From NCBI RefSeq assembly GCF_032464895.1, contig NZ_JAWDIC010000001.1, forward strand, positions 682,001 through 746,000: a stretch of 64,000 nucleotides of DNA, written 5' to 3'. Shown here piece after piece: positions 1-64,000 of the stretch. Each line of letters starts with the position of its first letter. Positions within the stretch are counted from its first letter, which is position 1. This stretch comes from Phycicoccus sp. M110.8. GTDB taxonomy: Bacteria > Actinomycetota > Actinomycetes > Actinomycetales > Dermatophilaceae. Below the pieces are notes generated by a model, which saw only the letters and a list, made by a program, of their open reading frames with translations, was not told the origin of the DNA and ran no database searches. A program made the translations under genes and the position numbers.

Positions 1-279
1 CCGGTCGTGGGCGTGTCACCGCTCATCGGCGGTATGCCGGTGCGCGGCCACGCGGACGCGTGCCTGTCCGCCATCGGGGTCGAGTCCACCGCGGGTGCGG
101 TGGCCGGCCTGTACGAGGACTTCCTCGACGGGTGGCTCGTGGCACCCGACGACGTCGACGCGGTGAAGCTCCCCCGGGCCACGGTGGTCGGGCGGCCGCT
201 CCTGATGACCGACCGGGAGGCGGCGGCGGACATCGCCGGCGCCGCCCTCGACCTCGCGCTCGAGCTCCGGGCGCGCTGA
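1..279 (+). CDS. cofD: 2-phospho-L-lactate transferase CofD/FbiA, C-terminal part
   Basis: The reading frame is open from the first base, so this is the last 92 codons of a gene that starts outside the window. The visible residues begin PVVGVSPLIGG and continue with MPVRGHAD and a GVE..AGVA-like helix, which is the pattern of the C-terminal third of CofD (FbiA). That enzyme transfers the phospholactate or phosphoenolpyruvate moiety to the deazaflavin Fo in coenzyme F420 synthesis. The stop TGA is followed after 1 bp by the GTG start of cofE, so the two are surely co-transcribed. An F420-type oxidoreductase gene lies at 39.8-40.9 kb. The identification is a family inference from about 90 residues. 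Confidence 0.85.
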   Translation, partial: PVVGVSPLIGGMPVRGHADACLSAIGVESTAGAVAGLYEDFLDGWLVAPDDVDAVKLPRATVVGRPLLMTDREAAADIAGAALDLALELRAR

Positions 280-280
280 G

Positions 281-1312
281 GTGCGGCTCGAGGTCATCGG
301 GGTCGAGGGGGTCCCGGAGGTCCGTGCCGACGACGACCTGGCCGCCCTGCTCGTCGAGGCCTGCGCGGCCATGGCCGTCGACCTCGTGGACGGCGACGTG
401 GTCGTCGTCTCGAGCAAGGTCGTGTCGAAGTCGCTGGGCCTGTGGGCCGACACGAGCGACCGTTCCGCCGCCGTCGTCGGGCAGACCGTGCGCGTGGTGG
501 CCGAGCGGATGGCAGGCGACCGGGTGACCCGGATCGTCCAGGCCACGAGCGGCCCGGTCATGGCCGCGGCCGGGGTGGACGCCTCGAACACGGGCGGGGT
601 CGACGGGCTGCTGCTGCTGCCCGACGACCCGGACGCCGAGGCCGCGCGGCTGCGCGAGCGGCTGCTGGTGCTCACCGGGCTCACCCGGCTCGGGGTGGTC
701 GTGAGCGACACCGCCGGGCGGCCGTGGCGGGTGGGGCAGACCGACTTCGCGCTCGGCGCTGCCGGGGTGCAGGTCACCGACGACCTGCGCGGCAGCGTGG
801 ACGCCGACGGTGCGCCCCTCAGCGTCACCAGCCGGGCCGTCGCGGACGAGCTCGCGGCCGCCGCCGACCTGGTCAAGGGCAAGGTCTCGCACGTCCCGGC
901 CGCGGTGGTCCGCGGCTCGGGCTGGGCCGGCGAGGTCGTCGGCGCGGGCGCGCGCTCACTGGTCAGGACGGGGCGGGAGGACTGGTTCGGCCTCGGCCGG
1001 GTCGAGGCCGTCCGGTCCGCGCTCGGGGTCCCGCCGGGCTCCCCCGCCGCCCTCGAGGACGGCATCGCCTCCGTCGCCCCCGAGGCGGTGGCCGAGCGTG
1101 TGGCCCGAGCCGTGCGGGTGGCCTTGCGCGGCTGCCCGGACGCCGCCGTGGACGTCGGGCCCGGCCACCTGCGCGTCCAGGCGGACTCCGGCTACCAGCT
1201 CGGGGTGGCCGTCAGCCGGCTGCGGACGGCACTGTGGGGCGAGGGCGTCGAGGTCGCCGACCCGCCCGAGCCGAGTGGGCTCGAAGCCGTCCTGCACCTA
1301 CCGAACGCCTGA
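281..1312 (+). CDS. cofE: Coenzyme F420-0:L-glutamate ligase (CofE/FbiB)
   Basis: Encodes 343 aa. The enzyme adds gamma-linked glutamates to F420-0, using GTP. The CofE domain spans about residues 1-245, with VVVVSSKVVSKSLG near residue 45 and the conserved SDTAGRPWR.GQTDFALG.AG block near 143-165. Mycobacterial FbiB is about 448 aa because it carries a C-terminal FMN-binding nitroreductase-like domain that reduces dehydro-F420-0. Here the extension after the CofE domain is only about 95 residues and does not look like that domain to me, so reduction may need a separate enzyme. The start is GTG, 1 bp after the cofD stop. It faces the next gene tail to tail. Confidence 0.9.
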   Translation: MRLEVIGVEGVPEVRADDDLAALLVEACAAMAVDLVDGDVVVVSSKVVSKSLGLWADTSDRSAAVVGQTVRVVAERMAGDRVTRIVQATSGPVMAAAGVDASNTGGVDGLLLLPDDPDAEAARLRERLLVLTGLTRLGVVVSDTAGRPWRVGQTDFALGAAGVQVTDDLRGSVDADGAPLSVTSRAVADELAAAADLVKGKVSHVPAAVVRGSGWAGEVVGAGARSLVRTGREDWFGLGRVEAVRSALGVPPGSPAALEDGIASVAPEAVAERVARAVRVALRGCPDAAVDVGPGHLRVQADSGYQLGVAVSRLRTALWGEGVEVADPPEPSGLEAVLHLPNA

Positions 1313-1401
1313 CCCCGACCCCGGCCTCCCCGCCCGCGTCGCGCCACGACCCGTTCGCGCACCTGGCGCGCGTCCCGCGCCCCCGGCCGGGTCGGCGGGT
1401 G

Positions 1402-2409
1402 TCAGCGCTGGCGGTTGGGCAGGTGCGTCCGCGGCGCCATCCGCGGCCCGCGGCGCGGACGCATGGCACCGCTCAGCTCGAGCAGCCGCTGCACCCGGAA
1501 CCGGTGACCGCGGTACGGCTCGAGCACCTCGGCCATCTCCTCGTCGCCGAGCGCCTCGCCGGTCAGCGCCCAGGTGACGTTCTTGGCCACGTGGTAGTCG
1601 CCGAAGCTCACGGCGTCGGCGTCACCGAACGCGCGCTGCGCCGTCTCGGCCGCGGTCCAGACCCCGATGCCGGGTACCGCCCGCAGGCGCCGCCCTGCCT
1701 CCCGTGGCGGCAGGACCGCGGCCTGCTCCAGCCGCCCCGCGACCTTGGCGGCCCGCACGGCCGTGCCCGACCGGGCACCGTCGACCGAGGCCCGCAGCCA
1801 CTCCCAGGACGGGATGGCGGCCCAGCCCGCCGCGTCCGGGGCGACCCACAGCCGCCGGTCGGCCCCCGGCCCGGGCGCGCGCGAGCCGAACCGCCGCACG
1901 AGCGCGCGGTACCCCCCGAAGGCCTCCTGCCCGGTCACCTTCTGCTCGATAGCGGCGGGCACGAGGGCGTGCAGCACCAGGCCGGACCGCGGGACGTGCC
2001 ACGCGGCATACCTCCGGTGTGCCTGTGCCACCTGCGGGTGGTGCGCCACGAAGTCGCCGTCGTCGTCGTCGGCCCCGAGCAGGGACGGCACCTGCTCCAG
2101 CGCCCACTGCGCTCCCGGGCCCCAGGCCGTCGCGTGCACCTCGGCGAGGTCCGAGCGCTGGACCAGCCGCAGCGTCGCCGGCCCGGCAGGCGTGGGCAGG
2201 CCGAGCCACCACCCGTCACCCCGGTCGGACTGGAACGTGGGGTCGCCGGCCCCGCGGCGGAACGCCGCGACGACGAGCCCGACCGCCGTCGGGCGAGCGG
2301 GCCGCCACACACGGGTCGACTCGGCGGACGGGGACACCAGGCCATTCTCGCGCGTTGCCCCGACAGACCACCGGTCGCCCGGCAGCTCGCCGGACTCCGA
2401 CCGGGCCAC
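1402..2409 (-). CDS. AlkA-like DNA-3-methyladenine glycosylase (HhH-GPD family)
   Basis: Encodes 335 aa. The C-terminal half carries the helix-hairpin-helix/GPD signature: LRAVPGIGVWTA near residue 245 followed by the Asp of SFGDYHV, the expected catalytic aspartate that expels alkylated bases during base excision repair. QEAFGGYRALVRRFG upstream is also typical of the AlkA fold. There is no C-terminal Fe-S cysteine cluster, so it is not an EndoIII/MutY type. The start is GTG; other in-frame starts exist and the N-terminal 30 residues are uncertain. It is divergent from the DUF3105 gene, with 53 bp between them. Confidence 0.85.
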   Translation of the reverse strand: MARSESGELPGDRWSVGATRENGLVSPSAESTRVWRPARPTAVGLVVAAFRRGAGDPTFQSDRGDGWWLGLPTPAGPATLRLVQRSDLAEVHATAWGPGAQWALEQVPSLLGADDDDGDFVAHHPQVAQAHRRYAAWHVPRSGLVLHALVPAAIEQKVTGQEAFGGYRALVRRFGSRAPGPGADRRLWVAPDAAGWAAIPSWEWLRASVDGARSGTAVRAAKVAGRLEQAAVLPPREAGRRLRAVPGIGVWTAAETAQRAFGDADAVSFGDYHVAKNVTWALTGEALGDEEMAEVLEPYRGHRFRVQRLLELSGAMRPRRGPRMAPRTHLPNRQR

Positions 2410-2462
2410 CGGGCGAGGACCGTAGACTCTGCGCGAACCGCCCCCGACTCCCCGAGGAACCC

Positions 2463-3164: not shown

Positions 3165-3199
3165 CGCCGCGACCGCCCTTCCTGGCTGCAGAGAGACGA

Positions 3200-3232
3200 C
3201 GAGGGCCGCCCGCACACCGCGGGCGGCCCTCG
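3200..3232. terminator. Perfect hairpin between convergent genes
   Basis: Fourteen-bp perfect stem with a 5-nt loop (ACACC), arms at 3200-3213 and 3219-3232. It lies between the DUF3105 stop and the stop of the minus-strand methyltransferase, so it can serve both directions. There is no U-tract, as is usual in high-GC actinobacteria. Confidence 0.8.
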
Positions 3233-3263
3233 TGCATGGTGCCGGGGAGAGGGGCTCGCCGCG

Positions 3264-4139
3264 TCAGCGGGCCTGGCGGCGGCGGAAGGTCAGCAGGATG
3301 AAGGTGTAGTCCAGGTCCACGCGGTCCCAGTGCACCGGACGCTCGGCGTGCGACAGGGCGTCCGAGGTCGAGAGGTCGCCGACCAGCTCGAGCCCCGCGG
3401 CGTCGGCCATCGAGACGAGGGCGCTGATGTCCGCCGGGCCGAAGATCTTCACCGGCGTGCCGTATGCCGTGCGGCCGGTGGTGTCGGGCGGGTCCTGGTC
3501 GTAGTCGGTCGAGACGCAGAGCACCCCTCCGGGACGCAGCACCCGTGCGCTCTCGCGCAGGAAGCCCTCCAGCGGCACGCCGTGCTCGATGACGGACATG
3601 CAGGTGATGGCGTCGAGCGAGCAGTCGGGCAGGCCCGTGGCGGTCACGTCACCGTGCCGGAACACGACGCCGTCCCGGCGCACCTCGTCGCCGAACTCGA
3701 GGTTGATGCCGAGCAGGGAGTCGGGGGCACCGCCCAGGCCGTAGAGCCGCAGCCAGGGCAGGACGGGCGAGTAGCGCGCGCTGCCGGCGTCCATGACCCG
3801 CGCCGTGCGCGAGCCGTCGTCGGCCAGCGTCAGGACGGCGCCCACCGCGCCGAGGGCGTCCCAGTTCTTCGGTTGGTCGCGGTGCAGCGGCAGGCGCAGG
3901 TGCTTCCCCTCGGCCACGGCCCGCTCCCAGTCGGCAGCGGTCCGCAGGACGGCGGTGGGGGGCACCGACCGCGGGACCGGCCGGTTCGCGGCATACCCGC
4001 GCCTGGCCTCGGCCCGGCGCTGCACGGCGACGCGCGCCCACAGCACGTGCTCGGCGGCACGCTTGGCGACGGCGAGCAGGGGTCCCCCGGGCGGCGCGGC
4101 GACCTGGCCCGAGGCAGCGGCCTCGTCTGGAGTCGTCAT
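3264..4139 (-). CDS. Class I SAM-dependent methyltransferase
   Basis: Encodes 291 aa. A degenerate SAM-binding motif I appears at VMDAGSARYSPVLPWL (about residue 115), an acidic motif II region at HGDVTATGLPDCSLDAI (about 165) and a post-motif at RVLRPGGVLCVSTD (about 202). This is the layout of small-molecule or glycan methyltransferases. The substrate is not visible; the glycosyltransferases directly upstream suggest a sugar of the surface polymer. Its last 90 residues resemble the C-terminal part of the GT4 fusion protein at 5132-7051 (GPADI.ALV..A...GLELVGDL against GPADVRGVL..A.DLGFVLVGDL), so the two are probably paralogous. It has its own leaderless promoter. Confidence 0.8.
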   Translation of the reverse strand: MTTPDEAAASGQVAAPPGGPLLAVAKRAAEHVLWARVAVQRRAEARRGYAANRPVPRSVPPTAVLRTAADWERAVAEGKHLRLPLHRDQPKNWDALGAVGAVLTLADDGSRTARVMDAGSARYSPVLPWLRLYGLGGAPDSLLGINLEFGDEVRRDGVVFRHGDVTATGLPDCSLDAITCMSVIEHGVPLEGFLRESARVLRPGGVLCVSTDYDQDPPDTTGRTAYGTPVKIFGPADISALVSMADAAGLELVGDLSTSDALSHAERPVHWDRVDLDYTFILLTFRRRQAR

Positions 4140-4145
4140 TGGCGC

Positions 4146-5132: not shown

Positions 5133-7051
5133 CAGCGCCGCCTCAGGGTCAGGCGCAGCAGGCTGTATGCCGCGTCGGTGCGCCGGGAGGTGCCGCTGGC
5201 CCGGCGCATCCGCTCGGTGATGTCGCCGTCGAGGTCGCCCACCAGCACGAAGCCGAGGTCGTGCGCACGGGCCAGCACACCGCGGACGTCGGCCGGGCCG
5301 AGCGCCCCCTCGGCGCCGAGGTGGCCGATCGGCAGGGTGAGGCAGAGCAGGCCGCCGGAGCGCAGCGCCCACGACGCCTGGCTCATCGCCTCGTCGACGT
5401 CGTCGGCGTCGCAGCCGCCGGGGTGCAGCCGCACGATGACGTCGAGCGAGGCCGTGTCGACGTCGAGCACCTCGACGCTGGAGCGCGGTCCGGTGAGCTC
5501 GAGCTCCACGGGCGCGAACCCGATGGCGCGGGCCCAGCGGGACAGGGGCGAGCGGCTGCCGCTCTCGTCGACGATGACCGCGCTGCGCCGCCCGTCGTCG
5601 CGCACGCGGACGATCGCCGCGAGCGTGCCCAGGGCGGCCCAGGCGGCGATGCCGTCGGAGCACCGGGGCAGGCCGAGGGCGCGGGCGAAGGCCTTGGCGT
5701 CGTCGGCGTCCTGCGCGTCGGCGAGGACGTCGGACGGCCGGATCCAGTCGGGCAGGTCGGTCGGCCCGAGCTCGACGTCCGGCCGGGCGGCGGCCACGAG
5801 TCCCCGAACGCCGGTCGCGAGCCGCCGGCCGAGGCGGCCGGCGACCGCGGCCGCACCGGTCTCCTGCGGCTCGTCGTCCTCGGGGGCGTCCGGCTCCGCA
5901 GCCGGCTCGACGCTCGCGAGCGCCTCGATGGCACCGAGGTAGCGCGCCCAGGGCCCCGACAGGTCCGGCGGCCGCACGGCCGACCGGAGCTGCTCGGCAT
6001 ACCCGGGCTCGGCGAGGCGCCGCAGGGCACCGACGAGGGCCTCGCGGTCGTTCGGGGGCACGACGAGCCCGTCGACCCCGTCGCGGACCTGGCGGCCGAA
6101 GCCGGCGACGTCCGTGGCCAGGACCGGGAGGCCGTGGCGCTGGCCGAGCAGGGCGTTCTGCGAGGCGGTGGCGCTGCGATAGGTCAGGGTGAGCACGTCG
6201 TGGCCGGCGAGCAGTGGCGCGAGCCGCTCGGCGGGCACGTAGCCGCCGTGGACCTCGACCCGGCCCCGCAGCCGCGGGTCGGCGGCGAGCTGCTTGACCC
6301 GGTCACCGGCGGCCCCCCACATCTCCCCGGCGACGGTGAGCGTGGGACCGGGCACCTCGGCCAGGGCCTCGAGGAGCAGGTCGACGCCCTTGTACTCGCG
6401 GACCAGGCCGAGGGCCAGGAGCCGCGGAGGCCCGTCGTGCTCGGGCCGGTCGACCGGCGGCCCGCCGGGCAGGTGCGGCGGCAGCTCGGCGACCGCGACG
6501 TGCGGGGCGTGCAGCTCGCGGGCCAGGCGGGCCTGGTCCTCGCTGTGGACCAGGACCGCGTCGACCCGCTCGAGGAACTGCTGCATGAGCTCGCGGTCGC
6601 CGACGTGCGGCTCGTGCGGCAGGACGTTGTGCGCGATGACGACGGTGCGCGGGTGGCCCGGTCGCACGGAGCGTCCGGCAACCGTGCGCCGCCCGACGCC
6701 GGCGGCGCGCAGGAGCGCGAGGTGGGCCGGGACGACCGCCGGGATGACGTGCACGACGAGGACGACGTCGAAGGAGCGCAGCCGGCGGCCGGTGCGCACC
6801 CACGTGTCGGGGCGCGCCCAGCTCAGGGCGCGGACGGTGCGCGGGAACGGGTCCACGTCGGGGGCACCCCCGGGGACCGCCTGCTCACCCGGGTAGAGCT
6901 TGCTGGGGTACAGGTGCGACCACGAGACCAGGGTGACGTCGTGCCCGGCGTCGGCGAGCTCGTGCGCGAGGCTCGTCGTGTGGGCGGCGACCCCGCCCTT
7001 GTAGGGGTGGGTCGGACCGACGACCGCGACCTTGAGCGACGCCGTGCTCAC
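5132..7051 (-). CDS. GT4 glycosyltransferase fused to a methyltransferase-like domain
   Basis: Encodes 639 aa. Residues 1-365 form a GT-B, family 4 glycosyltransferase: PTHPYKGGVAAHTTSLAHEL at the start, LALGLVREYKGVDLLLEAL near 215 and a sugar-nucleotide region ending LVVPPNDREALVGAL. An acidic, Pro-rich linker (about 375-400) leads to a second domain (about 425-639) with ASLDVIVRLHPGG, WALRSGGLLCLTLP and DLGFVLVGDLDGD, which matches the tail of the methyltransferase at 3264-4139. The first half of that domain lacks a clear SAM-binding glycine motif, so it may be inactive. GTG 7051 overlaps the upstream stop as GTGA. Confidence 0.82.
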   Translation of the reverse strand: MSTASLKVAVVGPTHPYKGGVAAHTTSLAHELADAGHDVTLVSWSHLYPSKLYPGEQAVPGGAPDVDPFPRTVRALSWARPDTWVRTGRRLRSFDVVLVVHVIPAVVPAHLALLRAAGVGRRTVAGRSVRPGHPRTVVIAHNVLPHEPHVGDRELMQQFLERVDAVLVHSEDQARLARELHAPHVAVAELPPHLPGGPPVDRPEHDGPPRLLALGLVREYKGVDLLLEALAEVPGPTLTVAGEMWGAAGDRVKQLAADPRLRGRVEVHGGYVPAERLAPLLAGHDVLTLTYRSATASQNALLGQRHGLPVLATDVAGFGRQVRDGVDGLVVPPNDREALVGALRRLAEPGYAEQLRSAVRPPDLSGPWARYLGAIEALASVEPAAEPDAPEDDEPQETGAAAVAGRLGRRLATGVRGLVAAARPDVELGPTDLPDWIRPSDVLADAQDADDAKAFARALGLPRCSDGIAAWAALGTLAAIVRVRDDGRRSAVIVDESGSRSPLSRWARAIGFAPVELELTGPRSSVEVLDVDTASLDVIVRLHPGGCDADDVDEAMSQASWALRSGGLLCLTLPIGHLGAEGALGPADVRGVLARAHDLGFVLVGDLDGDITERMRRASGTSRRTDAAYSLLRLTLRRR

Positions 7052-8142
7052 ACACCCGCCCGCGAGCGCACGACCAGGTCGGACAGCAGCGCCAGCGACC
7101 CGATCATGATGCCGCTGACGATCAGCAGCACGGTGCTCGCCGGGAAGTAGAACGGGTGGCGGACCATGTCGACGACGGCCTTGACGACGCCGATGACGAT
7201 CATCCACAGGGCCGGCGGCATGAGGACCTTGAGCGGGTCGAAGTACATGACCATCCGCAGCACCTGCAGGATGTAGCGGTAGGCGTCGCGCACGAAGTGG
7301 AACTTGCTCTCCCCCGCACGCTTGGCGTAGCTCGTCGGCACGTACTTGATGTCGTGCTGGTTGGACAGGAACGCCAGCGTGATGGTCGTGACGCAGCTGA
7401 ACCCGGGGGGCAGGAGCCGCAGGTAGGGCAGCGACACCTCGCGCCGGAACGCGCGCAGGCCGGAGTTCAGGTCGGGGATCCTCTGGTTCGTGAGCTTCTC
7501 GGCGATCTTGCGGATGAGCCACTTCGCCGGGACGCGGGCCCACTTGTGCGTGCCCTCCTCGGTGGTGCGGGCGCCGACGACCTGGTCGTAGGTCGGGTCG
7601 TCGCGCAGGATCCGCACGAGCTCGGGGATGCGCTCGTTCTCGTAGGTCATGTCGGCGTCGGTCCAGACGACGATCTCGCCGTACGCCTGCTGGGTGCCGA
7701 TGCGGCGGGCCGTGCCGCTGCCACCGTTGCGGCGGAACGGCATCACGCGGATGTTGGGGTACTCCGCAGCCGCCCGGTGGAGCACCTCGAGGGTGTCATC
7801 GGTCGACGCGTCGTCGATGCAGAGCAGCTCGTACGTCAGCTCGCTGGCGTCCATCGCCGCGGTGATCCGCTCGATCTCGCGCATGACGTGCCGGCCCTCG
7901 TTGTAGCAGGGCAGGACGATGGTGACGTAGGGCTTCGACGGGTCCTCGCCGGGCGCGCGGGTGGCCACCTCGGTCGCCGGCAGGTATGCCGCGTCGGCGG
8001 GGTGCACCGGCACGTCACCGGGCGCCGGGGCGGGCGGGGTCGCGCCGGCCGGGGTCGTCGTCGACGGGGCGGGCAGGCCGGTGCTGATGACCTCGGTCGC
8101 CGGGCTCTCGGGCACCGGGAAGGTCTGGGTAGGTTCGCTCAT
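7048..8142 (-). CDS. GT2 glycosyltransferase, membrane-associated
   Basis: Encodes 364 aa. A Pro/Thr-rich N-terminal tail of about 68 residues precedes a GT-A domain: VTIVLPCYNEG, CIDDASTDDT and the DxD-type metal site WTDADMTYENE. FRRNGGSGTARRIG and DLNSGLRAFRR are typical of dolichyl-phosphate-mannose-synthase-like enzymes that load sugars onto polyprenyl phosphate. Two C-terminal transmembrane helices (about 295-360) anchor it. It is the first gene of a four-gene minus-strand set: this gene, the GT4 fusion, the UPF0104 protein and the methyltransferase. A TAGGCT box lies 10 nt upstream of the ATG. The donor sugar cannot be told. Confidence 0.85.
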   Translation of the reverse strand: MSEPTQTFPVPESPATEVISTGLPAPSTTTPAGATPPAPAPGDVPVHPADAAYLPATEVATRAPGEDPSKPYVTIVLPCYNEGRHVMREIERITAAMDASELTYELLCIDDASTDDTLEVLHRAAAEYPNIRVMPFRRNGGSGTARRIGTQQAYGEIVVWTDADMTYENERIPELVRILRDDPTYDQVVGARTTEEGTHKWARVPAKWLIRKIAEKLTNQRIPDLNSGLRAFRREVSLPYLRLLPPGFSCVTTITLAFLSNQHDIKYVPTSYAKRAGESKFHFVRDAYRYILQVLRMVMYFDPLKVLMPPALWMIVIGVVKAVVDMVRHPFYFPASTVLLIVSGIMIGSLALLSDLVVRSRAGV

Positions 8143-8217: not shown

Positions 8218-9009
8218 GTGGACACCGACGAGGTGCTGGACCTGCTCAAGACCGTGGCCGCCGAGGTCATCACCCCCCGCTTCCGGTCGCTGGCCGACGG
8301 CGAGGTGATGGAGAAGAACCCGGGCGACCTCGTCACCGTCGCCGACCAGGAGTCCGAGGCGATCCTCACCCGCGAGCTCTCCGCGGCATACCCGGACGCC
8401 TTCGTCCTCGGCGAGGAGCGGACGGCCACCGACCCCACCGCGATCAGCCAGTTCGTGGCCGCCGACCACGCCTTCACGGTCGACCCGGTCGACGGCACCA
8501 AGAACTTCGTCCACGGGTCCCCGGACCACGCCGTCATGGTCAGCGAGGTCAAGGGCGGGGAGACCGTCCGCGGCTGGATCTGGCAGCCCGAGCACGAGGT
8601 GGGCTGGGTCGCCGAGAAGGGCGCCGGTGTCTACCGCAACGGCCAGCGGGTCACCCGCGAGCCCGTCGCCGACGACGTCGCCCCCCACGGGGTCACCTCG
8701 ATCTGGCCCCTGCGCGGGCACAGCCTGGGCGACCTGCCCGCCCTCACCGGGTCGTGGGTCTGCTGCGGCGTGGATTACCCCCGCCTGATCGAGGGCGCCA
8801 CCGACTACATCCTCTACGCGCGCAACAGCCCGTGGGACCACTCCCCCGGCTCGCTCATGGTGCGCGAGGCCGGCGGCACCGTGGGTCATCCCGACGGCAC
8901 GCCCTACTCCCCCTCGGCGATGACCCCCGGCATCATCGTGGCCGCGGACCGGGGCACGTATGCCGCGGTGCGCCGGCTCGCCGCCGACGCCTTCGCGCGC
9001 CGCAGCTGA
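8218..9009 (+). CDS. Inositol monophosphatase family protein (histidinol-phosphatase-like)
   Basis: Encodes 263 aa, the usual length. The metal-binding and catalytic signatures are present: GEER near residue 65, DPVDGTKNFVHG near 85-96 and WDHSPGSLMVREAGG near 205-220. The family hydrolyses inositol-1-phosphate, histidinol phosphate or similar sugar phosphates with Mg2+. SPG replaces the more usual AAG, and the substrate cannot be decided from sequence; HisN-type or inositol phosphatase are both possible. GTG 8218 is chosen because the family usually begins a few residues before the first helix. It is divergent from the GT2 operon and faces the next gene tail to tail. Confidence 0.87.
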   Translation: MDTDEVLDLLKTVAAEVITPRFRSLADGEVMEKNPGDLVTVADQESEAILTRELSAAYPDAFVLGEERTATDPTAISQFVAADHAFTVDPVDGTKNFVHGSPDHAVMVSEVKGGETVRGWIWQPEHEVGWVAEKGAGVYRNGQRVTREPVADDVAPHGVTSIWPLRGHSLGDLPALTGSWVCCGVDYPRLIEGATDYILYARNSPWDHSPGSLMVREAGGTVGHPDGTPYSPSAMTPGIIVAADRGTYAAVRRLAADAFARRS

Positions 9010-39696: not shown

Positions 39697-39797
39697 CCCG
39701 CTGGTATGCCGGGTCGACACCGCTCCCCGCTGTGGTGCCCACCACGGTCCCTCGCCGCCCGGGTGCCCGCCGCGGTGGGGGGCACCCGGGCGTGGGC

Positions 39798-44606: not shown

Positions 44607-44671
44607 GGGGACGACCGCCCAGGCGGGGTATGCCATGGGCGGGGGTATGCCGGGCTGCCGGCGGGCGCCGC

Positions 44672-52213: not shown

Positions 52214-52900
52214 TCAGGCGTCGAGCTCGACCCCGGCGGGGGCGCGTCGCTCGACCATGGCGCGCAGCTCGGCGGCCTCGGTCTCGACGAGGCAGCCGGA
52301 GTCGAGCACCCGCTGCGCCGCGTCGAGGTCGCCCATGAACGCCCGGAACGTCACCGGCACCGTGATGCCGTGGTCGGGCCGCGAGCGGACCACCACCGGG
52401 TCACCGCTGCGGATCGTGCCGGGCGAGACGACCGACAGGTATGCCCCGGTGCGGCCCCGGGCGGCGAACCGCTTCGCCCAGCCACGCTCGCCCATGCGTG
52501 CGGTGAAGGTGGCGCACGGGATCCGCGGGCCACACACCTCGAGCACGACCTCGTCGCCGACCTCCCACACCTCGCCCACGACCGCGCTGTCGACGTCCAG
52601 CCCGAGGGTGGTGAGGTTCTCGCCGAACATGCCGTTCGGCAGCTCGCGGCCCAGCTCCTCACCCCACCGGTCGAGCTCCTCGCGCGCGAAGGCGTAGACC
52701 GCCTGGCTGTCCCCGCCGTGGTGCCGGGTGTCGCCGATGAAGTCGCCGGCAACCCCGCTGCCGAGGCCGCCGTGCTTGGGCCCGGGGGCACGGACCTCGA
52801 CCGACCCGACCGGCACCTTGCCGATGCCGGTGGTGCCGACCTTCTTCGCGCTGTTGGGCTGCGGCGCCCCGACGTTGAGGGACAGGACGGAGGCGCTCAT
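52214..52900 (-). CDS. MOSC domain protein (YiiM-like)
   Basis: Encodes 228 aa. GGLGSGVAGDFIGDTRHHGGDSQAVYAF contains the HHGG.D.AVYA core, GMFGENLTTLGLD follows near residue 90, and CGPRIPCATFTARMG near 120 has the conserved Cys expected to carry sulphur or bind the molybdenum cofactor. The family takes part in Moco-dependent reduction of N-hydroxylated compounds. No Moco gene is nearby. ATG 52900 has a TAGGGT box 6 nt upstream. Confidence 0.92.
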   Translation of the reverse strand: MSASVLSLNVGAPQPNSAKKVGTTGIGKVPVGSVEVRAPGPKHGGLGSGVAGDFIGDTRHHGGDSQAVYAFAREELDRWGEELGRELPNGMFGENLTTLGLDVDSAVVGEVWEVGDEVVLEVCGPRIPCATFTARMGERGWAKRFAARGRTGAYLSVVSPGTIRSGDPVVVRSRPDHGITVPVTFRAFMGDLDAAQRVLDSGCLVETEAAELRAMVERRAPAGVELDA

Positions 52901-54759: not shown

Positions 54760-55797
54760 TCAGGCGTCGTCGCGCATCCGTAGGTCGCCGTAGGTGCGCC
54801 GTGCCCCGTCCAGGGCGCTCACGTACGCAGACCGTTCGTATGCCGTGGCGTCCGTCCCGAGCGGTACGGCCAGGAGACCACGCAGGTCGTCGACGGAGCC
54901 GAAACCCTTGCGCGCCATCCAGTCCTCGAGCCCGGCGAGGAGGCTCGCGGCATACGCCTCCCCGTGCCGCAGCAGGGCGGAGGCGGTCATGACGACGTCC
55001 GCGCCGGCGAGCAGGTACTTCACGACGTCCTCGCCGGTCTCCACCCCCGTCGTCGCCGCCAGCGAGCAGCGCACGCGGCTGCGGAGGATCGCGACCCAGG
55101 TGCGCGGCAGCCGCGCCTCCTCAGGCACCGACAGGGAGAGCTGGGGGTGCACGGAGACCGTCTCGAGGTCGATGTCGGGCGGCAGGAACCGGTTGAACAG
55201 CACCAGTCCGGCGGCCCCGGCCTCATCCAGCCGCAGCGCCATCTGGCCGACCGAGCTGAAGTGCGGGCTGAGCTTCACCGCCACCGGGACGGAGACGACC
55301 TCGCGGACGGTCCGCAGGATCTCGACGTGCCAGTCCTCGACGTCACGGCCCGAGAGGTGCGGGTCCCCGGGGACGAGGTAGACGTTGAGCTCGATCGCCG
55401 CCGCCCCGGCGTCCTGCAGCGACGCGGCGAAGCCGGCCCACCCACCCGGGCTCGAGCCGTTGAGGCTCGCGACGACCGGCACAACCAGGTCGCCGGCCAC
55501 GCCGACAGCGCGTTCGACGAGGTGCAGGTAGTGGGCACCACCGCCGGAGGACCCGGCCCGGCTGGGGAAGTACGACAGCGCCTCCCCGAACGACTCGTCG
55601 TACGGTTCGGTGACCTGCAGGTCGCGCAGCTGCTCCTGCCGCACCTGCTCCTCGAACAGCGACGGCAGCACCACGGCGCCGACCCCCGCGTCGGCGAGGG
55701 CCCGCACGCCCTCCACGGTCTGCGACAGCGGTGAGGCGGAGGCGACGAGCGGGTTGCGCAGGGCCAGCCCGAGGTAGCGGGTCGCGAGGTCGGTCAC
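54760..55797 (-). CDS. Dihydroorotate-dehydrogenase-like flavoprotein
   Basis: Encodes 345 aa. It has the FMN-binding TIM-barrel pattern of DHODH: YLGLALRNPLVASASPLS near the start, VVASLNGSSPGGW near 112, AIELNVYLVPGDP near 137, PVAVKLSPHFSS near 170 and VLFNRFLPPDI near 200, but the C-terminal Fe-S segment of PreA-type enzymes is missing. It is coupled to nifJ by a GTGA overlap, a pairing also known from cyanobacteria and some other bacteria. True pyrimidine synthesis is unlikely. It may take electrons from the NifJ-GltD-like pair, which is inference. Confidence 0.85.
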   Translation of the reverse strand: MTDLATRYLGLALRNPLVASASPLSQTVEGVRALADAGVGAVVLPSLFEEQVRQEQLRDLQVTEPYDESFGEALSYFPSRAGSSGGGAHYLHLVERAVGVAGDLVVPVVASLNGSSPGGWAGFAASLQDAGAAAIELNVYLVPGDPHLSGRDVEDWHVEILRTVREVVSVPVAVKLSPHFSSVGQMALRLDEAGAAGLVLFNRFLPPDIDLETVSVHPQLSLSVPEEARLPRTWVAILRSRVRCSLAATTGVETGEDVVKYLLAGADVVMTASALLRHGEAYAASLLAGLEDWMARKGFGSVDDLRGLLAVPLGTDATAYERSAYVSALDGARRTYGDLRMRDDA

Positions 55798-58700
55798 CTG
55801 CTCCTCCTGGCGTCGGCCGCGAACGCCGCCGGGCCACGGGTCGCCATCTCCTCGTAGGTGGCCCATCGCCGATCCACGGCCTCCTGGGCGAGGCCGAGCA
55901 GGCGCTCCGCCTCGGCCGGGTCGGAGCTGCGCAGGAGGCGGTAGCGCAGCTCGCGGTAGACATAGTCCGCCAACGGGATCCGCGGCCTCGGGGAGTCGAG
56001 CTGGAAGGGGTTGCGGCCGTGGTCGCGCGCGACCGGGTCGTAGCGCACCAGCGGCCAGTGACCGCTGGCGACGGCGCGGTACTGCTGGTCGAGGCCGTCC
56101 TTCATGTCGATGCCGTGGGCGATGCAGTGGCTGTAGGCGATGACCAGGGACGGTCCGTCGTAGGCCTCGGCCTCGCGGAACGCGGTCAGGGTCTGCTGCG
56201 GGTCGGCCCCCATCGCGACCCGTGCGACGTAGACGTTGCCGTACGCGATCGCCTGCAGCGCGAGGTCCTTCTTGGCTGCGGTCTTGCCCGCCGCCGCGAA
56301 CTTCGCCACGGCCCCGAGTGGCGTCGCCTTGGACGACTGCCCGCCGGTGTTGGAGTACACCTCGGTGTCGAGCACGAGGACGTTGACGTCCAGGCCGCTC
56401 GCGAGCACGTGGTCCAGCCCCCCGGAGCCGATGTCGTAGGCCCACCCGTCGCCACCGACGATCCACAGGCTGCGCCGCAGGAGGTGGTCCGCGACGCTGC
56501 GCAGGTCCGCGACGGCCGGCCCGTCGAGGCCGGTCAGGCGGCCCAGCAACTCGGTCACCCGGTCGCGCTGGGCGACGAGCTCGTGCTCGCGGACCTGCGG
56601 GGCGGTCAGGATCGCGTCGACGAGGTCAGCGCCGACCTCGTCACGGAGCTCGGCCAGCCGCTCGCGCGCCAGCCGCGCGTGCAGGTCGGCGGCGAGCCGC
56701 ATGCCCAGGCCGAACTCCGCGTTGTCCTCGAACAGCGAGTTCGACCAGGCGGGGCCGCGCCCGGCGGCGTTCTTCGTCCAGGGGGTCGTCGGCAGGTTCC
56801 CGCCGTAGATCGAGGAGCAGCCGGTCGCGTTGGCCACCATCGCCCGCTCGCCGAAGAGCTGGGTGAGGAGCTTGAGGTACGGGGTCTCGCCGCAGCCGGC
56901 GCATGCCCCCGAGAACTCGAACAGCGGCTGGAGGAACTGCGTCCCGCGCACCGTCCCGAAGTCGACGCGGGCCCGGTCGTTGACCTCCAACGTTTCGAAG
57001 AACGCGATGTTCTCGCGCTCGACGTCGAACCGCTCGACGGCCGGGGTGAGGTTGATCGCCTTGCGGTCCGGCCTTCCGATGGGGCTGACCGGGCACGCCT
57101 CGACGCACAGCGAGCACCCGGTGCAGTCCTCCGCGTAGACCTGCAGCGTGTACCGCGCCGACGGCAGCCCCACGGCGTCGAGGGGCGCCGACGCGAAGCC
57201 CTCCGGCGCACCGGCCAGGTCCTTCTCGTCGTAGTACTTCGCGCGGATGACGCTGTGCGGGCACACGAACGAACAGGTGCCGCACTGGATGCAGGTGTCG
57301 GGATCCCACTGCGCGACCAGGTCGGAGATGCGCCGCTTCTCGTAGGCCGTGGTGCCGCTGGGGAAGGTGCCGTCCACGGGGAGCGCGCTGACGGGGAGGT
57401 CCTCGCCACGGCCGGCCATCATCGCGCCCGTCACCTCCCGCACGAACGGTGGTGCGGACGCCGGGACGGCGGGTGGGGAGACCCGCCCGGAGGTCACCAC
57501 CCCCGGCACCGGTACCCGGTGCAGGGCGGCCAGGGCGGCATCCACGGCCTCCTCGTTCCGGCGGACCACGGCGGTGCCGCGCTTCCAGTAGGTCCGGTGG
57601 ATGGCTGCCTTCACCTGCTCGACGGCCTGCTCTCGCGGCAGCACCCCGGAGATCGCGAAGAAGCACGTCTGCAGCACCGTGTTCGTGCGCCCCGGCAGGC
57701 CGCACTCGCGTGCGACGCGGTCGGCGTCGATGGTGTAGAGCCGCAGGCCCTTGTCGAGAACCTGCTGCTGCACGGTCGCGGGCAGCGCGTCCCAGAGCTC
57801 GTCGGGTGGCTGCGGGGCGTTGAGCAGCAGGGTGGCCCCGTCCGCTGCCCGGCCGAGGACGTCGACCTTCTCGAGCAGCCCGAGGTGGTGGCAGCCGACG
57901 AAGCCGGCCCGGTCCACGAGGTAGGGCGCACGGATGGGGTGCGGCCCGAAGCGCAGGTGCGAGACGGTCTGCCCGCCGGACTTCTTGGAGTCGTAGACGA
58001 AGTAGCCCTGGGCGAAGAGGTGCGGGTCGGCGCCGAGGATCTTGATCGTGTTCTTGGCGGCCCCGACCGTGCCGTCGGAGCCCAGCCCGAAGAAGACCGC
58101 GCGCACGGTGGCCGGGTCCTCGATGTCGAGGTCCGGGTCCCACGGCAGGCTGGTGCCGGTGACGTCGTCGACGATGCCGACCGTGAACCTCGGCCGCGGC
58201 TCCGGCCGGGCGAGCTCCTCGAACACGCCCACGACCATGCCCGGCGTGAGCTCCTTGGACGACAGGCCGTAGCGGCCACCCACCACCCGGGGCAGGGTGC
58301 CGCGCCGACCGCTCCCGTGGGCGTCGGCCAGTGCCGCCACGACGTCGAGGTGTATCGGTTCCCCCGCCGAGCCCGGCTCCTTCGTGCGGTCCAGGACCCC
58401 CACCGTCCTGACGGAGGCAGGGAGCGCCGCCACGAGCTGCTCGGCGGGGAAGGGCCGGTACAGCCGCACCTGCAGCACGCCGACGCGCTCCCCCCTCGCG
58501 ACCAGGTGGTCCACCGTCTCCCGGACCGTCTGCGCTCCCGACCCCATGACGACGACCACCCGGTCGGCCTCGGGGTGCCCGGCATACTCCACCAGCCGGT
58601 AGGCCCGCCCGCAGCGCTCGGCGAGCTCGTCCATGACCGACTGCACGATGCCGGGCGTGCGCGCGTAGAACGGGTTCACCGTCTCGCGGGCCTGGAAGTA

Positions 58701-59378: not shown

Positions 59379-61035
59379 CCAGGATGTCCTGCTCCGCTGC
59401 AGCCGGCTCGGCCACCATCTCGATGGCGTGCACCGGGCACTGCCGGGCGCAGGTGCCGCAGCCGGTGCAGGCGGTGTAGTCGAAGCGGTACCGGTGCCCC
59501 GCGCCGAGCTTGATGACCGCGTCCTCCGGGCACGCCCCGAGGCAGCCGTCGCACTCGAAGCAGTTGCCGCAGGACAGGCACCGCCCCGCCTCGTGCGCCA
59601 CCTCCTCCGGCGTCAGCCCGGCGGTCACCTCGACGAACCCGTGCACCCGCTCGGCCGGGTCGAGCTCGGCCTGCTCGCGGCGGCCGTGGTCCCCGAAGTA
59701 CCAGAGGTTGAGCTTCTCGAAGTCGGCCGGCGGGTGCTTGGGGCGCGGCGCCGGCTCGCGGCCGGAGAGCCAGGCATCGATGCTGCGGGCTGCCCTCTTG
59801 CCGTGGCCCACGCCGACGGTCACGGTCCTCTCGCTCGGCACGGCGTCACCGCCGGCGAACACGCCCGGGGCGCCGGTCATGAGGGTGAACGGGTCGACCT
59901 GGACCGTGTCGCCGTCCAGCCGCACCCCCGGGACGGAGCGCAGGAAGCCGGTGTCGCTCTCCTGGCCGACGGCGAGGATGACGGTGTCGGCGGCGAGCTT
60001 CTCGAACTGGCCCGTGCCGTGGGGCCGGCCGTCCTCGTCGAGTGCCTGGACCTCCACGGTGAGCTCGTGCTCGTTCATCGAGCTGATGGTGCGCAGCCAG
60101 GTGATGCGGATGCCCTCGCGCTCGGCGTCGGCCGCCTCCTGCTCGTGGGCGGGCATCTGCTCGCGGGTGCGCCGGTACACGATCACGGTGTCGTCGGCAC
60201 CGAGCCGGCGGGCCACCCGGGCGGCATCCATCGCGGTGTTGCCGCCGCCGTAGACGGCCACGTGACGGCTGGCCAACGAGCCCTGCTCGCCGGACTCGAC
60301 ACCCCGCAGGAACGAGACGGCGTCGATGACCCGGCTGGCGTCCTCGTTGGGGATGTCCACCCGCTTGGACAGGTGGGCACCCACCGCCGCGAACACCGCG
60401 TCGAACCCGCCGTCGTGCATCTCGGCGGTGAGGTCGGTGACCCGGTGGTCCTGCTCGAAGACCACGCCCAGGGCGGCGATCCGGGCGATCTCGGCATCGA
60501 GCACGTCCCGCGGCAGCCGGTAGGACGGGATGCCGTAGCGCATCATCCCGCCCGGTTCCGGTCCGTTGTCCCGCACCACCACCTCGTGGCCCAGGCGGGC
60601 GAGGTGGTATGCCGCGCTGAGGCCGCTGGGTCCGGAGCCCACGACGAGCACCCGCCGGGAGCTGCGCCGCGGCGGCGGGTCGAAGCGCCAGCCGGACTCG
60701 ATCGCCAGGTCGCCGAGGAACCGTTCGACCCCGTGGATGGACACGGCGGCGTCGAGCTCGACGCGGTTGCAGGCGCCTTCGCACGGGTGGTAGCAGACGC
60801 GACCGTGCACGGCGGGCAGCGGGTTGTCGGCCGTGAGCAGCCGCCACGCCTCCTCGTGCCGTCCGGCCCGCACCAGCGCCAGCCACCCCTGGATGTTCTC
60901 CCCCGCCGGGCACCCCGCGTTGCAGGGCGGCAGCAGGTCCACGTAGACCGGCCGCTGGGAACGCTGCGGGCCGGCTCGCAGCCGGCCCAGCCCCAAGGGG
61001 GCCGGGGGCGTCAGGTCCGGGTCGTCGAGTCCCAT
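59365..61035 (-). CDS. GltD-like NAD(P)-binding Fe-S flavoprotein with C-terminal ferredoxin domain
   Basis: Encodes 556 aa. N-terminal Fe-S ligands (CNAGCPAGENI, CYHPCEGACNR) are followed by an FAD site VVGSGPSGLSAAYHLARLGH near 133, an NAD(P) site AVYGGGNTAMDAARVARRLG near 260, and a C-terminal two-cluster ferredoxin domain with CFECDGCLGACPEDAVI and CTGCGTCARQCPVHAI. The build is that of glutamate-synthase small subunits and PreT, extended by ferredoxin clusters. It could pass electrons between NAD(P)H and the NifJ ferredoxin. ATG 61035 is chosen over GTG 61041 because GGAGG lies 5 nt upstream of it. Confidence 0.88.
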   Translation of the reverse strand: MGLDDPDLTPPAPLGLGRLRAGPQRSQRPVYVDLLPPCNAGCPAGENIQGWLALVRAGRHEEAWRLLTADNPLPAVHGRVCYHPCEGACNRVELDAAVSIHGVERFLGDLAIESGWRFDPPPRRSSRRVLVVGSGPSGLSAAYHLARLGHEVVVRDNGPEPGGMMRYGIPSYRLPRDVLDAEIARIAALGVVFEQDHRVTDLTAEMHDGGFDAVFAAVGAHLSKRVDIPNEDASRVIDAVSFLRGVESGEQGSLASRHVAVYGGGNTAMDAARVARRLGADDTVIVYRRTREQMPAHEQEAADAEREGIRITWLRTISSMNEHELTVEVQALDEDGRPHGTGQFEKLAADTVILAVGQESDTGFLRSVPGVRLDGDTVQVDPFTLMTGAPGVFAGGDAVPSERTVTVGVGHGKRAARSIDAWLSGREPAPRPKHPPADFEKLNLWYFGDHGRREQAELDPAERVHGFVEVTAGLTPEEVAHEAGRCLSCGNCFECDGCLGACPEDAVIKLGAGHRYRFDYTACTGCGTCARQCPVHAIEMVAEPAAAEQDILGGGI

Positions 61036-61250: not shown

Positions 61251-63122
61251 GTGGAAGCAGCAACGGCGATCGTCGCCATCATCGCCGTGGTCGTCGTCGT
61301 GGCCGGGCTCGCCCAGCGGTTCGGCTTCCTGGCACCCCTGGCCCTGCTCGTCGTGGGGGTGGGCATCAGCTTCGTGCCGGTCATCCCCGAACCGGCCCTG
61401 AGCTCCGAGCTCGTCCTGGTCGGCCTGCTGCCCCCGCTGTTGTATGCCGCCGCGATCCGCACGTCGCTGGTGGACTTCCGGGCCAACTGGAGCCCGATCC
61501 TGGCCCTGTCCGTGGGGCTCGTCCTCTTCACGGCCGCGGGCGTGGGCCTCGTGACGTGGTGGGCCCTGGGCGTGCCGTTCGTGGTGGCCTTCGCGCTCGG
61601 CGCCGTCGTGGCCCCGCCGGACGCGGTGGCGGCGACCGCGGTCGCGAGGCGCATCGGCCTCCCCCGCCGGATCGTGACCATCCTCGAGGGCGAGTCGCTG
61701 CTCAACGACGCGACGGCCCTGGTGTCGCTGCGGACCGCGTCCGCGGCGATCATCGCCGCCGGCAGCGTCACGTTCGCCTCCACCGCCGTGGACTTCGGTC
61801 GCGCAGTGGTGCTCGGCGTCGGTGTCGGGGCGGTCGTGGCGCTGGGTGTGGCGTTCGTGCGCCGCAAGGTCACCGACCCGGTGATCGACACCTCGATCTC
61901 GTTCATCGTCCCCTACGTCGCCTACCTTCCGGCCGAGCACTTCCACGGGTCCGGGGTGCTGGCCGTCGTCGTCGCGGGCATCGTGCTGGGCCACAAGTCA
62001 CCCGTGGTGCAGAACGCGTCCTCGCGCCTCAGCGAGCGGATCAACTGGCGGACCACCCAGTTCATCCTCGAGAACGTCGTCTTCCTCATGCTCGGCATGC
62101 AGATGCGCCGGCTGGTCAAGGACGCCCTCGACTCCGGTGTGGGTCTGGGGCGGCTCATCGGGGTCTGCACCCTCGTGGTCGTCACGGTCATCGTGCTGCG
62201 GCCGCTCTACGTCTTCCCCTTCAAGTGGGTCGAGTCGAAGATCAAGGGCGGCGGCCCGCAGTTCCGGCCCTCCAACAGCGCGGTCATCTCCTGGGCCGGC
62301 ATGCGCGGCGTGGTGACCCTCGCGGCCGCCTTCGCGCTCCCGGAGCAGACGCCGGAGCGGCCCGTCCTCGTGCTCGCCGCCATGTCGGTCACCGTGGGGA
62401 CGCTGCTGCTCCAGGGCCTGACGCTGCCGTGGCTCGCCCGGCGGCTCGGGGTGCGCGGTCCCGACCCCCGCGAGGACGCCCTGCAGGAGGCCACCATCCT
62501 GCAGGCCTCCGTCGCCGCGGGCCTCAAGGCCCTCGAGGAGCACGACGAGGCGGACGAGGAGACGATCGACCTGCTGCGCCGTCGCGCCGAGAACCGCACC
62601 AACATCGTCTGGGAGCGGCTCGGGCAGGGCCGGGAGGACGCGAGCGAGACCCCCAGCGCGGCATACCGGCGGCTGCGGATGCACATGCTCGGCGCGGAGC
62701 GCGAGGAGCTGCTCAAGATCCGCGACGCGGGCAACGTCGACCAGGAGATCCTGGTCCACGTCCTGGCCCAGCTCGACCTCGAGGAGTCGATGCTCGACCG
62801 CATCGAGGAGCGCTCCGACGAGCTGCGCGAGGACCCGCTGCTGCCGCCGGAGCGGGCGGTCGACGAGTGCGAGCACCTCGCCGCGCACCACGACCGGTTC
62901 GTGCCGCCGCTCACCCCGCACGGCTGCCAGGAGTGCCTCGAGCTCGGCGACACCTGGGTGCACCTGCGGCTGTGCCTCGACTGCGGGCACGTAGGCTGCT
63001 GCGACTCCTCGCCCAACAAGCACGCGAACAAGCACTTCGAGGAGACCGGTCACCCGGTCATGCGCAGCTTCGAGCCGGGCGAGGCGTGGCGCTGGTGCTT
63101 CGTCGACGAGCAGGTCGGCTGA
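61251..63122 (+). CDS. CPA1-type Na+/H+ antiporter fused to a UBP-type zinc finger
   Basis: Encodes 623 aa. The first 400 residues contain about twelve helices with the CPA1 motifs PPDAVAATAVARRIGLP near 124 and LEGESLLNDATALV near 145 (ion-binding ND), so an active exchanger is expected. A charged helical linker (about 410-535) leads to CEHLAAH, CQECLELG, CLDCGHVGCC and the NKHANKHFEETGHPV motif between 540 and 605. This is the zinc-binding pattern of the ubiquitin-specific-protease ZnF domain, known in some bacterial antiporters and single-domain proteins. It may sense a free C-terminus or a metal and gate transport. Confidence 0.9.
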   Translation: MEAATAIVAIIAVVVVVAGLAQRFGFLAPLALLVVGVGISFVPVIPEPALSSELVLVGLLPPLLYAAAIRTSLVDFRANWSPILALSVGLVLFTAAGVGLVTWWALGVPFVVAFALGAVVAPPDAVAATAVARRIGLPRRIVTILEGESLLNDATALVSLRTASAAIIAAGSVTFASTAVDFGRAVVLGVGVGAVVALGVAFVRRKVTDPVIDTSISFIVPYVAYLPAEHFHGSGVLAVVVAGIVLGHKSPVVQNASSRLSERINWRTTQFILENVVFLMLGMQMRRLVKDALDSGVGLGRLIGVCTLVVVTVIVLRPLYVFPFKWVESKIKGGGPQFRPSNSAVISWAGMRGVVTLAAAFALPEQTPERPVLVLAAMSVTVGTLLLQGLTLPWLARRLGVRGPDPREDALQEATILQASVAAGLKALEEHDEADEETIDLLRRRAENRTNIVWERLGQGREDASETPSAAYRRLRMHMLGAEREELLKIRDAGNVDQEILVHVLAQLDLEESMLDRIEERSDELREDPLLPPERAVDECEHLAAHHDRFVPPLTPHGCQECLELGDTWVHLRLCLDCGHVGCCDSSPNKHANKHFEETGHPVMRSFEPGEAWRWCFVDEQVG

Positions 63123-63145: not shown

Positions 63146-63151
63146 GTGCGC

Positions 63152-63823
63152 GTGACCCTGCACCTCGTCCTCGCCTCCGCCTCACCCGCCCGCAAGAAGC
63201 TCCTGGTCGCCGCGGGCGTCGAGGCGAGCATCGTCGTCAGCGAGGTCGACGAGGACGCAGCCGTCCGCGACGCCCGCCACGTCCACGGTGACGAGCTCGG
63301 CGCGGAGGACGTCGCCCTCCTGCTCGCGCGCGCCAAGGCCGAGGACGTCGCCGCCCAGGTCGACGGCGCGCTCGTCCTCGGCTGCGACTCGGTGCTGGAG
63401 CTCGACGGGGAGATCCACGGCAAGCCGGCGTCGGTGGCCGAGGCCGTCTCGCGCTGGTCGCGGATGAGCGGCCGGTCCGGCGTCCTGCACACGGGTCACT
63501 GGGTCGTCGACACCCGCGACGCCGACGAGGGCGGCACGGGGGCGACGCTCGGCGCGACCGCGGCGACCACCGTCCACTTCGCCCGGCTCGAGGCCGAGGA
63601 GGTCGAGGCGTACGTCGCCACCGGCGAGCCGCTGCGCGTGGCCGGCGCGTTCACCCTCGACGGGCTCGGCGCGCCGTACGTCGCCGGCATCGAGGGCGAC
63701 CCCAGCAACGTCGTCGGGCTGTCGCTGCCCCTGCTGCGCGAGCTGCTCGCCGAGGTCGGCGTGCCGTGGCGCGACCTGCGCGCCGCCGCCTTCCAGGGCG
63801 CCCAGGGCGAGCGCGGCGCCTGA
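63152..63823 (+). CDS. maf: Maf family nucleotide pyrophosphatase
   Basis: Encodes 223 aa. LHLVLASASPARKKLLVAAGV is the N-terminal Maf signature (core LASASPARKKLL), VLGCDSVLELDGEIHGKP near 78 carries the catalytic Asp, and GLGAPYVAGIEGDPSNVVGL near 170 closes the active site. Maf proteins hydrolyse non-canonical or methylated nucleoside triphosphates and affect cell division. In many actinobacteria maf follows the carboxylase beta and epsilon genes directly; here the set is split by about 12 kb of other genes, which suggests an insertion or rearrangement. Confidence 0.93.
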   Translation: MTLHLVLASASPARKKLLVAAGVEASIVVSEVDEDAAVRDARHVHGDELGAEDVALLLARAKAEDVAAQVDGALVLGCDSVLELDGEIHGKPASVAEAVSRWSRMSGRSGVLHTGHWVVDTRDADEGGTGATLGATAATTVHFARLEAEEVEAYVATGEPLRVAGAFTLDGLGAPYVAGIEGDPSNVVGLSLPLLRELLAEVGVPWRDLRAAAFQGAQGERGA

Positions 63824-63859
63824 CGCCGGGGCCGGAGCGGGGCCAGGGCGCCGACACCT

Positions 63860-63932
63860 CCGCAAAACGGCGGTTGCTCGGCAACCCGCGGGACAACAAC
63901 CCGCGGTATGCCGCGCAACCGCCGTTTTGCGG
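63860..63932. repeat. Nested inverted-repeat element, copy 2
   Basis: Outer arms 63860-63877 and 63915-63932 are an exact 18-bp inverted repeat with the core CAAAACGGCGGTTGC. Inside lie a short CGGCA/TGCCG stem, a direct repeat CAACCCGCGG, and one GTATGCC heptamer at 63906. It lies between convergent maf and the partial minus-strand gene. Its design matches copy 1 at 44536-44606. Confidence 0.8.
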
Positions 63933-63946
63933 GTAACCCAGGGCGG

Positions 63947-64000
63947 TCAGACCGGGGGGATGTCGCGGCGCTTGGTGGCGAAGTGGCGCTCGCGGTTCTT
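63947..64000 (-). CDS. C-terminal end of an unidentified minus-strand gene
   Basis: Seventeen codons and a TGA stop are visible, reading KNRERHFATKRRDIPPV. The GC pattern and charge are protein-like, and the stop lies 15 bp from the repeat element, as expected for a convergent gene. The rest is outside the window. I do not recognise the family with confidence. Confidence 0.45.
   Translation of the reverse strand, partial: KNRERHFATKRRDIPPV

Follow-up and report, generated by a model that had tools for sequence, protein, structure and literature searches.

DNA uptake sequences have been described for the Pasteurellaceae and the Neisseriaceae, where an excerpt of PMC7811141 ties them to type IV pili. 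According to excerpts of the respective sources, the DNA uptake sequence (DUS) of the Neisseriaceae is a short, non-palindromic word present in thousands of copies, both within genes and as inverted intergenic pairs (PMC3630211; PMC2397512), spelled in dialects among relatives (PMC3630211) and spaced near 1.5 kb, matching conversion fragments (PMC2397512); the uptake signal sequence (USS) of the Pasteurellaceae occurs about once per kb and also forms hairpin pairs (PMC7811141). Here, we describe an octamer, GTATGCCG, that resembles both and is scattered over a 64,000-nucleotide stretch (hereafter the window; contig NZ_JAWDIC010000001.1, positions 682,001 to 746,000) of the actinobacterium Phycicoccus sp. 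M110.8, whose family is probably Intrasporangiaceae/Dermatophilaceae. From the distribution of its copies, we consider it probable that GTATGCCG serves as a DNA uptake sequence read strand by strand and has been spread through biased transformation. Uptake sequences typically look like this: one exact word, balanced between orientations, spelled in dialects and paired in hairpins. The new part is a strand rule, which is read from the spacing alone.

The original prediction, made from the window only, had pointed to 43 copies of the heptamer GTATGCC/GGCATAC in balanced orientations. Every listed position was right (22 forward, 21 reverse), and 100 dinucleotide-preserving shuffles of the window gave a mean of 2.23 copies and a maximum of 8. 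The balance extends to the whole genome (4,117,279 bases in 7 contigs; G000), with 1305 forward and 1289 reverse heptamers, compared with 153 and 140 copies of a reversed control word. Counting k-mers over 464 kb identified the non-palindromic octamer GTATGCCG as the core word, with 295 copies versus 8.1 expected under a second-order Markov model. In the same 464 kb, A is avoided directly 5′ of the octamer; favored bases are T (+8) and G (+9), counting the first base as 0. Within the window, 39 of the 43 heptamers extend to the octamer (19 forward, 20 reverse), the others being those at 20494, 28375, 44628 and 52439. Genome-wide we counted 2,476 octamers (1234 + 1242), or ∼1 per 1.6 kb. Shuffle, Markov and control-word counts thus reject chance in a GC-rich genome as an explanation.

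Our gene calls come from a simple script based on codon likelihood, not from a curated annotation, and all coding and noncoding counts refer to them. Shuffling synonymous codons, which keeps proteins and codon counts (not codon pairs) intact, did not reproduce the abundance of the octamer: 245 coding copies in 464 kb compare with a mean of 8.4 and a maximum of 16 in 40 shuffles, 433 with 14.7 in 846 kb (∼30-fold), and 321 with 12.2 in 420 kb of G001, the congener in which the motif is densest. Noncoding DNA is richer in GTATGCCG than coding DNA, with 0.90 versus 0.58 copies per kb in our genome and 1.50 versus 0.88 in G001. A codon-usage or codon-pair effect is therefore rejected, in line with the earlier view that more than a codon effect was at work, and the four copies originally placed in noncoding DNA (39704, 44628, 44645 and 63906) are exactly those outside the gene calls. 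That the word is mostly read as TAT-GCC or GCA-TAC was borne out as well (222 of the 245 coding octamers in 464 kb, followed by GGC-ATA with 17, ATG-CCG with 5 and CGG-CAT with 1). The accompanying claim that it forces rare codons holds for TAT and ATA, of which 246 of 324 and 30 of 53 in 846 kb lie inside an octamer, but not for GCA (just 144 of 1,626). No bias of GTATGCCG toward gene ends was seen in the called genes, unlike the USS, a different word for which an excerpt of PMC2346458 reports such a bias.

The spacing of the copies was analyzed in 846 contiguous kb of our genome, containing 529 octamers. Pairs in the same orientation reach only 0.13–0.30 of the expected number below 600 bases, 0.45 at 0.6–1 kb and ∼0.75 at 1–2 kb before approaching 1 farther out, whereas pairs in opposite orientation remain at 0.92–1.53 of expectation throughout. 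Because same-orientation copies exclude each other while opposite ones do not, neighbors alternate: only 158 of 528 share their orientation (binomial p 1e-20). The same holds with the window removed (146/488) and for G001, where 118 of 407 neighbors among 408 octamers agree (binomial p 1e-17). For the window alone, the share is 12/38 (p 0.03), or 12/34 (p 0.12) for gaps of at least 150 bases. The exclusion is present in both genomes and absent in control words, with same-orientation shares of eight control octamers spanning 24/63 (CGGATGCC) to 320/576. On each strand taken separately, copies are spaced more evenly than expected by chance, with a coefficient of variation of 0.71–0.72 in our genome (2.5% bound of the null, 0.88–0.90) and 0.78–0.82 in G001 (0.87–0.88). 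In a toy turnover model, orientation-specific exclusion arose only when nearby same-orientation copies reduced the benefit of a copy, and the modeled alternation (0.39–0.40 same) was weaker than the observed one (0.30). Across the first 400 kb, divided into 50-kb bins, forward and reverse copies are about equally frequent, so that no orientation polarity is apparent in this sample (origin not located).

To place the word among relatives, we surveyed 58 genomes: 11 of the same genus, one from each of 25 further genera in the family, and 22 from other families of the order. All 11 congeneric genomes carry 690 to 4,042 heptamers. Thirteen of the 25 other genera have 722 to 4,856 and the remaining 12 have 350 or fewer, and other families of the order reach at most 425 (G054, where the control word counts 463). 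In a class-level survey of 148 genomes, including three of the family (our genome, G120 and G019), more than 386 octamers were found solely in our genome and G120 (1,251), compared with 46 in G019. Among named contigs, the closest one found, from Pedococcus cremeus, holds 20 octamers in 22 kb. The frame used as query is mostly covered by a called gene on the opposite strand, so this comparison shows kinship at the level of DNA sequence only. Enrichment in intergenic DNA and in relatives, whose absence was to have counted against the original prediction, was found in both. Since the codon-shuffle null fails, noncoding DNA is richer and relatives share the motif, we conclude that GTATGCCG acts as a DNA-level signal.

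Other spellings prevail in parts of the family. We compared observed with shuffle-expected words in called genes of 60–80 kb samples. In G013 and G014 the sixth base is free (GTATGNCG, 90 vs 7.8 and 58 vs 6.9), and G030, G026 and G033 favor GTATGCG (43 vs 5.8), GGATGCCG (40 vs 8.1) and GTACGCCG (53 vs 11.6), respectively. Spelling shifts in G011, G020 and G034 are weaker (2.1- to 2.6-fold), and no strong related word appeared in the samples of G012, G016 (20 kb, outside this screen), G018, G019, G023 and G024. In whole genomes, GGATGCCG occurs 3,816 times in G026 and 1,336 times in G011 (at most 976 in other family members), and GTACGCCG 2,216 times in G033 and 1,359 times in G034 (at most 1,011 elsewhere), the motif-poor congeners G009 and G010 having the most GTACGCCG in the genus (1,011 and 865). 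Among these candidate dialects, alternation is shown only for GTATGNCG (67 of 179 neighbors in the same orientation in G013 and G014). The nine further congeners pooled gave 56/156, G034 29/78 and G030 20/52 (p 0.13). Two side observations concern this survey. G055, from another family of the order, carries 774 + 774 copies of GGATGCCG (control, 97/87), which suggests that related words may not be confined to the family. The samples of G034 are also rich in runs of nine C or G (23 overlapping 9-mers in 80 kb vs 0.5 expected).

Inward-facing pairs of GTATGCCG within 60 bases number nine in the 846 kb and ten in G001; all but one, in G001, lie outside gene calls. Three pairs chosen for folding gave predicted energies of –37 to –44 kcal/mol, and the folding model thus predicts that inverted pairs are terminator-like hairpins between genes. 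Paired uptake sequences of Neisseria serve as terminators according to an excerpt of PMC2397512. Separately, a longer hairpin, in which the octamer is followed by CCGCTC and the mirror image, recurs at unlinked places (G000:C1 near 77606, 100917, 354726 and 665214) and, with the same extension, in the G001 sample near 161915 and 195366; it has the appearance of a small repetitive element based on the octamer.

Conservation of individual sites was assessed by aligning the window region with ten congeners at a mean identity of 82%. Of 1,434 directed comparisons, which share ancestry and are not independent, 690 (48%) showed the site intact, versus 29% for random octamers and 29–32% for three control words; a fourth control word, GTATGCGG, was intact in none of 92. 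Differences at lost sites affected all eight positions and included transitions as well as transversions, the most frequent being C in place of T at the fourth base. No single mutational bias can account for GTATGCCG, and a process favoring the exact word fits. The copies in the window, with the number of aligned congeners in which a site is intact where counted, are as follows:

32..39, forward, octamer GTATGCCG
2004..2011, reverse, octamer GTATGCCG
3462..3469, forward, octamer GTATGCCG
3989..3996, reverse, octamer GTATGCCG
5165..5172, forward, octamer GTATGCCG
5995..6002, reverse, octamer GTATGCCG
7984..7991, forward, octamer GTATGCCG
8384..8391, reverse, octamer GTATGCCG
8958..8965, forward, octamer GTATGCCG
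9506..9513, reverse, octamer GTATGCCG
12146..12153, forward, octamer GTATGCCG
12220..12227, reverse, octamer GTATGCCG
14923..14930, reverse, octamer GTATGCCG
17426..17433, forward, octamer GTATGCCG
18249..18256, reverse, octamer GTATGCCG
20494..20500, reverse, heptamer only GTATGCCA
22739..22746, forward, octamer GTATGCCG
23532..23539, reverse, octamer GTATGCCG
28375..28381, forward, heptamer only GTATGCCC
33510..33517, reverse, octamer GTATGCCG
36903..36910, reverse, octamer GTATGCCG
38758..38765, reverse, octamer GTATGCCG, intact in 3/8
39577..39584, reverse, octamer GTATGCCG, intact in 4/10
39704..39711, forward, octamer GTATGCCG, noncoding, intact in 7/10
42231..42238, reverse, octamer GTATGCCG, intact in 6/10
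42828..42835, forward, octamer GTATGCCG, intact in 2/10
44628..44634, forward, heptamer only GTATGCCA, noncoding
44645..44652, forward, octamer GTATGCCG, noncoding
46928..46935, forward, octamer GTATGCCG, intact in 7/10
48525..48532, reverse, octamer GTATGCCG, intact in 5/10
48658..48665, forward, octamer GTATGCCG, intact in 6/10
50529..50536, forward, octamer GTATGCCG, intact in 2/9
51681..51688, reverse, octamer GTATGCCG
52439..52445, forward, heptamer only GTATGCCC
53633..53640, reverse, octamer GTATGCCG, intact in 0/10
54267..54274, forward, octamer GTATGCCG, intact in 4/10
54838..54845, forward, octamer GTATGCCG
54948..54955, reverse, octamer GTATGCCG
58580..58587, reverse, octamer GTATGCCG
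60607..60614, forward, octamer GTATGCCG
61442..61449, forward, octamer GTATGCCG, intact in 8/10
62659..62666, reverse, octamer GTATGCCG, intact in 1/10
63906..63913, forward, octamer GTATGCCG, noncoding

Some regions lack the octamer. The longest gap in the 846 kb (12 kb; G000:C1:648647-660686) holds a tad/Flp pilus locus. The window region 23365-33700, with its gap at 23.5-33.5 kb, is nearly free of it and encodes a surface-polysaccharide export cluster of glycosyltransferases, an ABC-2 exporter and a teichoic-acid-type glycerophosphotransferase. These are two of the three long gaps that were read, the third being a mixed region. The USS is described as under-represented in newly acquired DNA (excerpt of PMC7811141).

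Of the roles considered, a DNA uptake sequence, which was absent from the original list, fits best. It is supported by the exact word exceeding codon nulls, the balance of orientations, the same-orientation exclusion, the hairpin pairs, the dialects, the conservation of sites and the presence of competence genes. The natural transformation machinery (probably a Tad/Flp pilus, ComEA and ComEC) would prefer strands carrying GTATGCCG, and one strand would enter the cell and replace the resident strand over ∼1–2 kb. A second copy on that strand within this distance would bring no further gain, one on the opposite strand would serve the opposite strand, and repeated biased import would spread and repair the word by molecular drive. 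Each strand separately would, quite probably, carry a lattice of copies ∼2–3 kb apart that is read once per strand per 1–2 kb by a single-strand machine, for which ComEC-type import or a RecBCD-independent reader are candidates. Unlike the exclusion seen here, no orientation-specific exclusion was found described for the DUS. A strand preference in gonococcal transformation is reportedly the subject, judging from its title, of a 2012 paper by Duffin and Seifert.

Our genome encodes ComEC (PF03772 search), adjoined by a 395-residue ComEA-like protein with SLBB and HhH domains, as well as DprA, and one of its Tad-like ATPases shares a locus with a short Flp-like pilin. PilT (TIGR01420) was not found above the cut-off in our genome, and in the family only in G035; this host, an actinobacterium, differs from the Neisseriaceae in this respect and in having no known ComP-type receptor. 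According to excerpts, Micrococcus luteus transforms with two tad clusters plus comEA/EC (PMC4322843), and ComEC admits one DNA strand to the cell (PMC7811141). In the motif-rich congener G004, the match to the ComEC domain falls into two adjacent pieces (G004:C1:1517076-1517881), as if split by a frameshift, which would be a sequencing error or the mark of a broken gene.

Several observations weigh against an uptake sequence. Among our Tad-like ATPases (TIGR03819), the three of four matches listed all score below the curated cut-off, and none of PF03772, TIGR01420, PF04257 and TIGR03819 separates motif-bearing from motif-free family members across the 58 genomes; ComEC and Tad-like ATPases are encoded even where the motif is lacking, so no gene tested tracks it. 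Known pilus machines bind double-stranded DNA (excerpt of PMC7811141), for which a strand rule is not obviously expected. Lost ungapped sites are one base off in 41% of cases (46% for random octamers) and two or more off in 59%, and one-mismatch words are depleted as a group in called genes (484 vs 559; 236 vs 315 in G001) despite an excess of a few individual ones, unlike the single-mismatch sites that an excerpt of PMC2397512 describes in Neisseria. When strand is ignored, the evenness of spacing seen over the first 400 kb (coefficient of variation 0.83) becomes weak over the full 846 kb (0.93), and G001 shows none (1.07). Finally, small samples show no alternation in G026 (25/49), G011 (15/34), G033 (28/55) and the motif-dense G017 (15/31), and G020 leans the opposite way (45/73). 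The candidate dialects of G026, G011, G033 and G020 may therefore reflect something weaker or of another kind.

The main rival, which we regard as unlikely though not far-fetched, is a Chi-like signal. During end resection, a helicase-nuclease distinct from RecBCD (e.g., AdnAB) would read one orientation and then switch to recombination. Such a directional reader would need a copy every 1–2 kb for each direction of travel, and same-orientation exclusion with independent orientations is just what it would give; the repair site among the originally suggested roles, or a recombination site, could produce the exclusion over 1–2 kb. RecBCD itself is rejected as the reader, because RecC (PF04257; found in 18 of 58 genomes) is absent from our genome, as it is from nine of ten congeners, though G001 has it. 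A Chi-like role is further disfavored by the lack of orientation bias along the 400 kb, by dialects and motif-free genera inside one family, and by the ∼30-fold enrichment, which exceeds the level known for Chi.

Less probable still is a chromosome-organizing or nucleoid-protein site under selection, as proposed for HIP1 in cyanobacteria. Thousands of conserved copies inside and between genes would suit it, and HIP1, like GTATGCCG, is one octamer that is singularly over-represented across its lineage, with derivative words in some genomes (excerpt of PMC4390886). HIP1 is palindromic and holds methylase sites, however, whereas GTATGCCG is no palindrome. The DNA-level role originally suggested stands, but a modification target or nucleoid site alone predicts no repulsion limited to same-orientation copies.

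We give very little credence to the idea that the word arose by mutation, for instance through deamination of methylated cytosine in GTACGCCG to give GTATGCCG. GTACGCCG is indeed depleted in genes (89 vs 141.1 expected; 26 vs 74.0 in G001), and lost sites most commonly carry C where the intact word has T. Transversion neighbors are depleted too (GTATGCGG 3 vs 14.6, GTAAGCCG 0 vs 5.4), lost sites vary at all eight positions, and mutation is unable to create an exclusion over kilobases, which together reject deamination of GTACGCC as the sole cause. That the word guides the DNA pump FtsK in a polar manner, like the FtsK-orienting polar sequences (KOPS), which are also eight bases long and non-palindromic, is hardly credible and is rejected here, since orientations are equal genome-wide and in every 50-kb bin of the 400 kb (origin not located) and neighbors alternate.

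Literature searches on the word, on uptake sequences in Actinobacteria and on the family combined with uptake returned nothing recognizable on the motif, bare-string matches being left aside. We know of no uptake sequence in Gram-positives, and GTATGCCG would, to our knowledge, be the first such strand-reading tag in Actinobacteria. If it is indeed a strand-specific DNA uptake sequence, self-tagging of genomes would have evolved again with other hardware, and the word would point to a sequence-reading protein and provide a readable record of recombination for the family. Given the orientation result, any genome, Neisseria and Haemophilus included, can be examined for strand-specific uptake.

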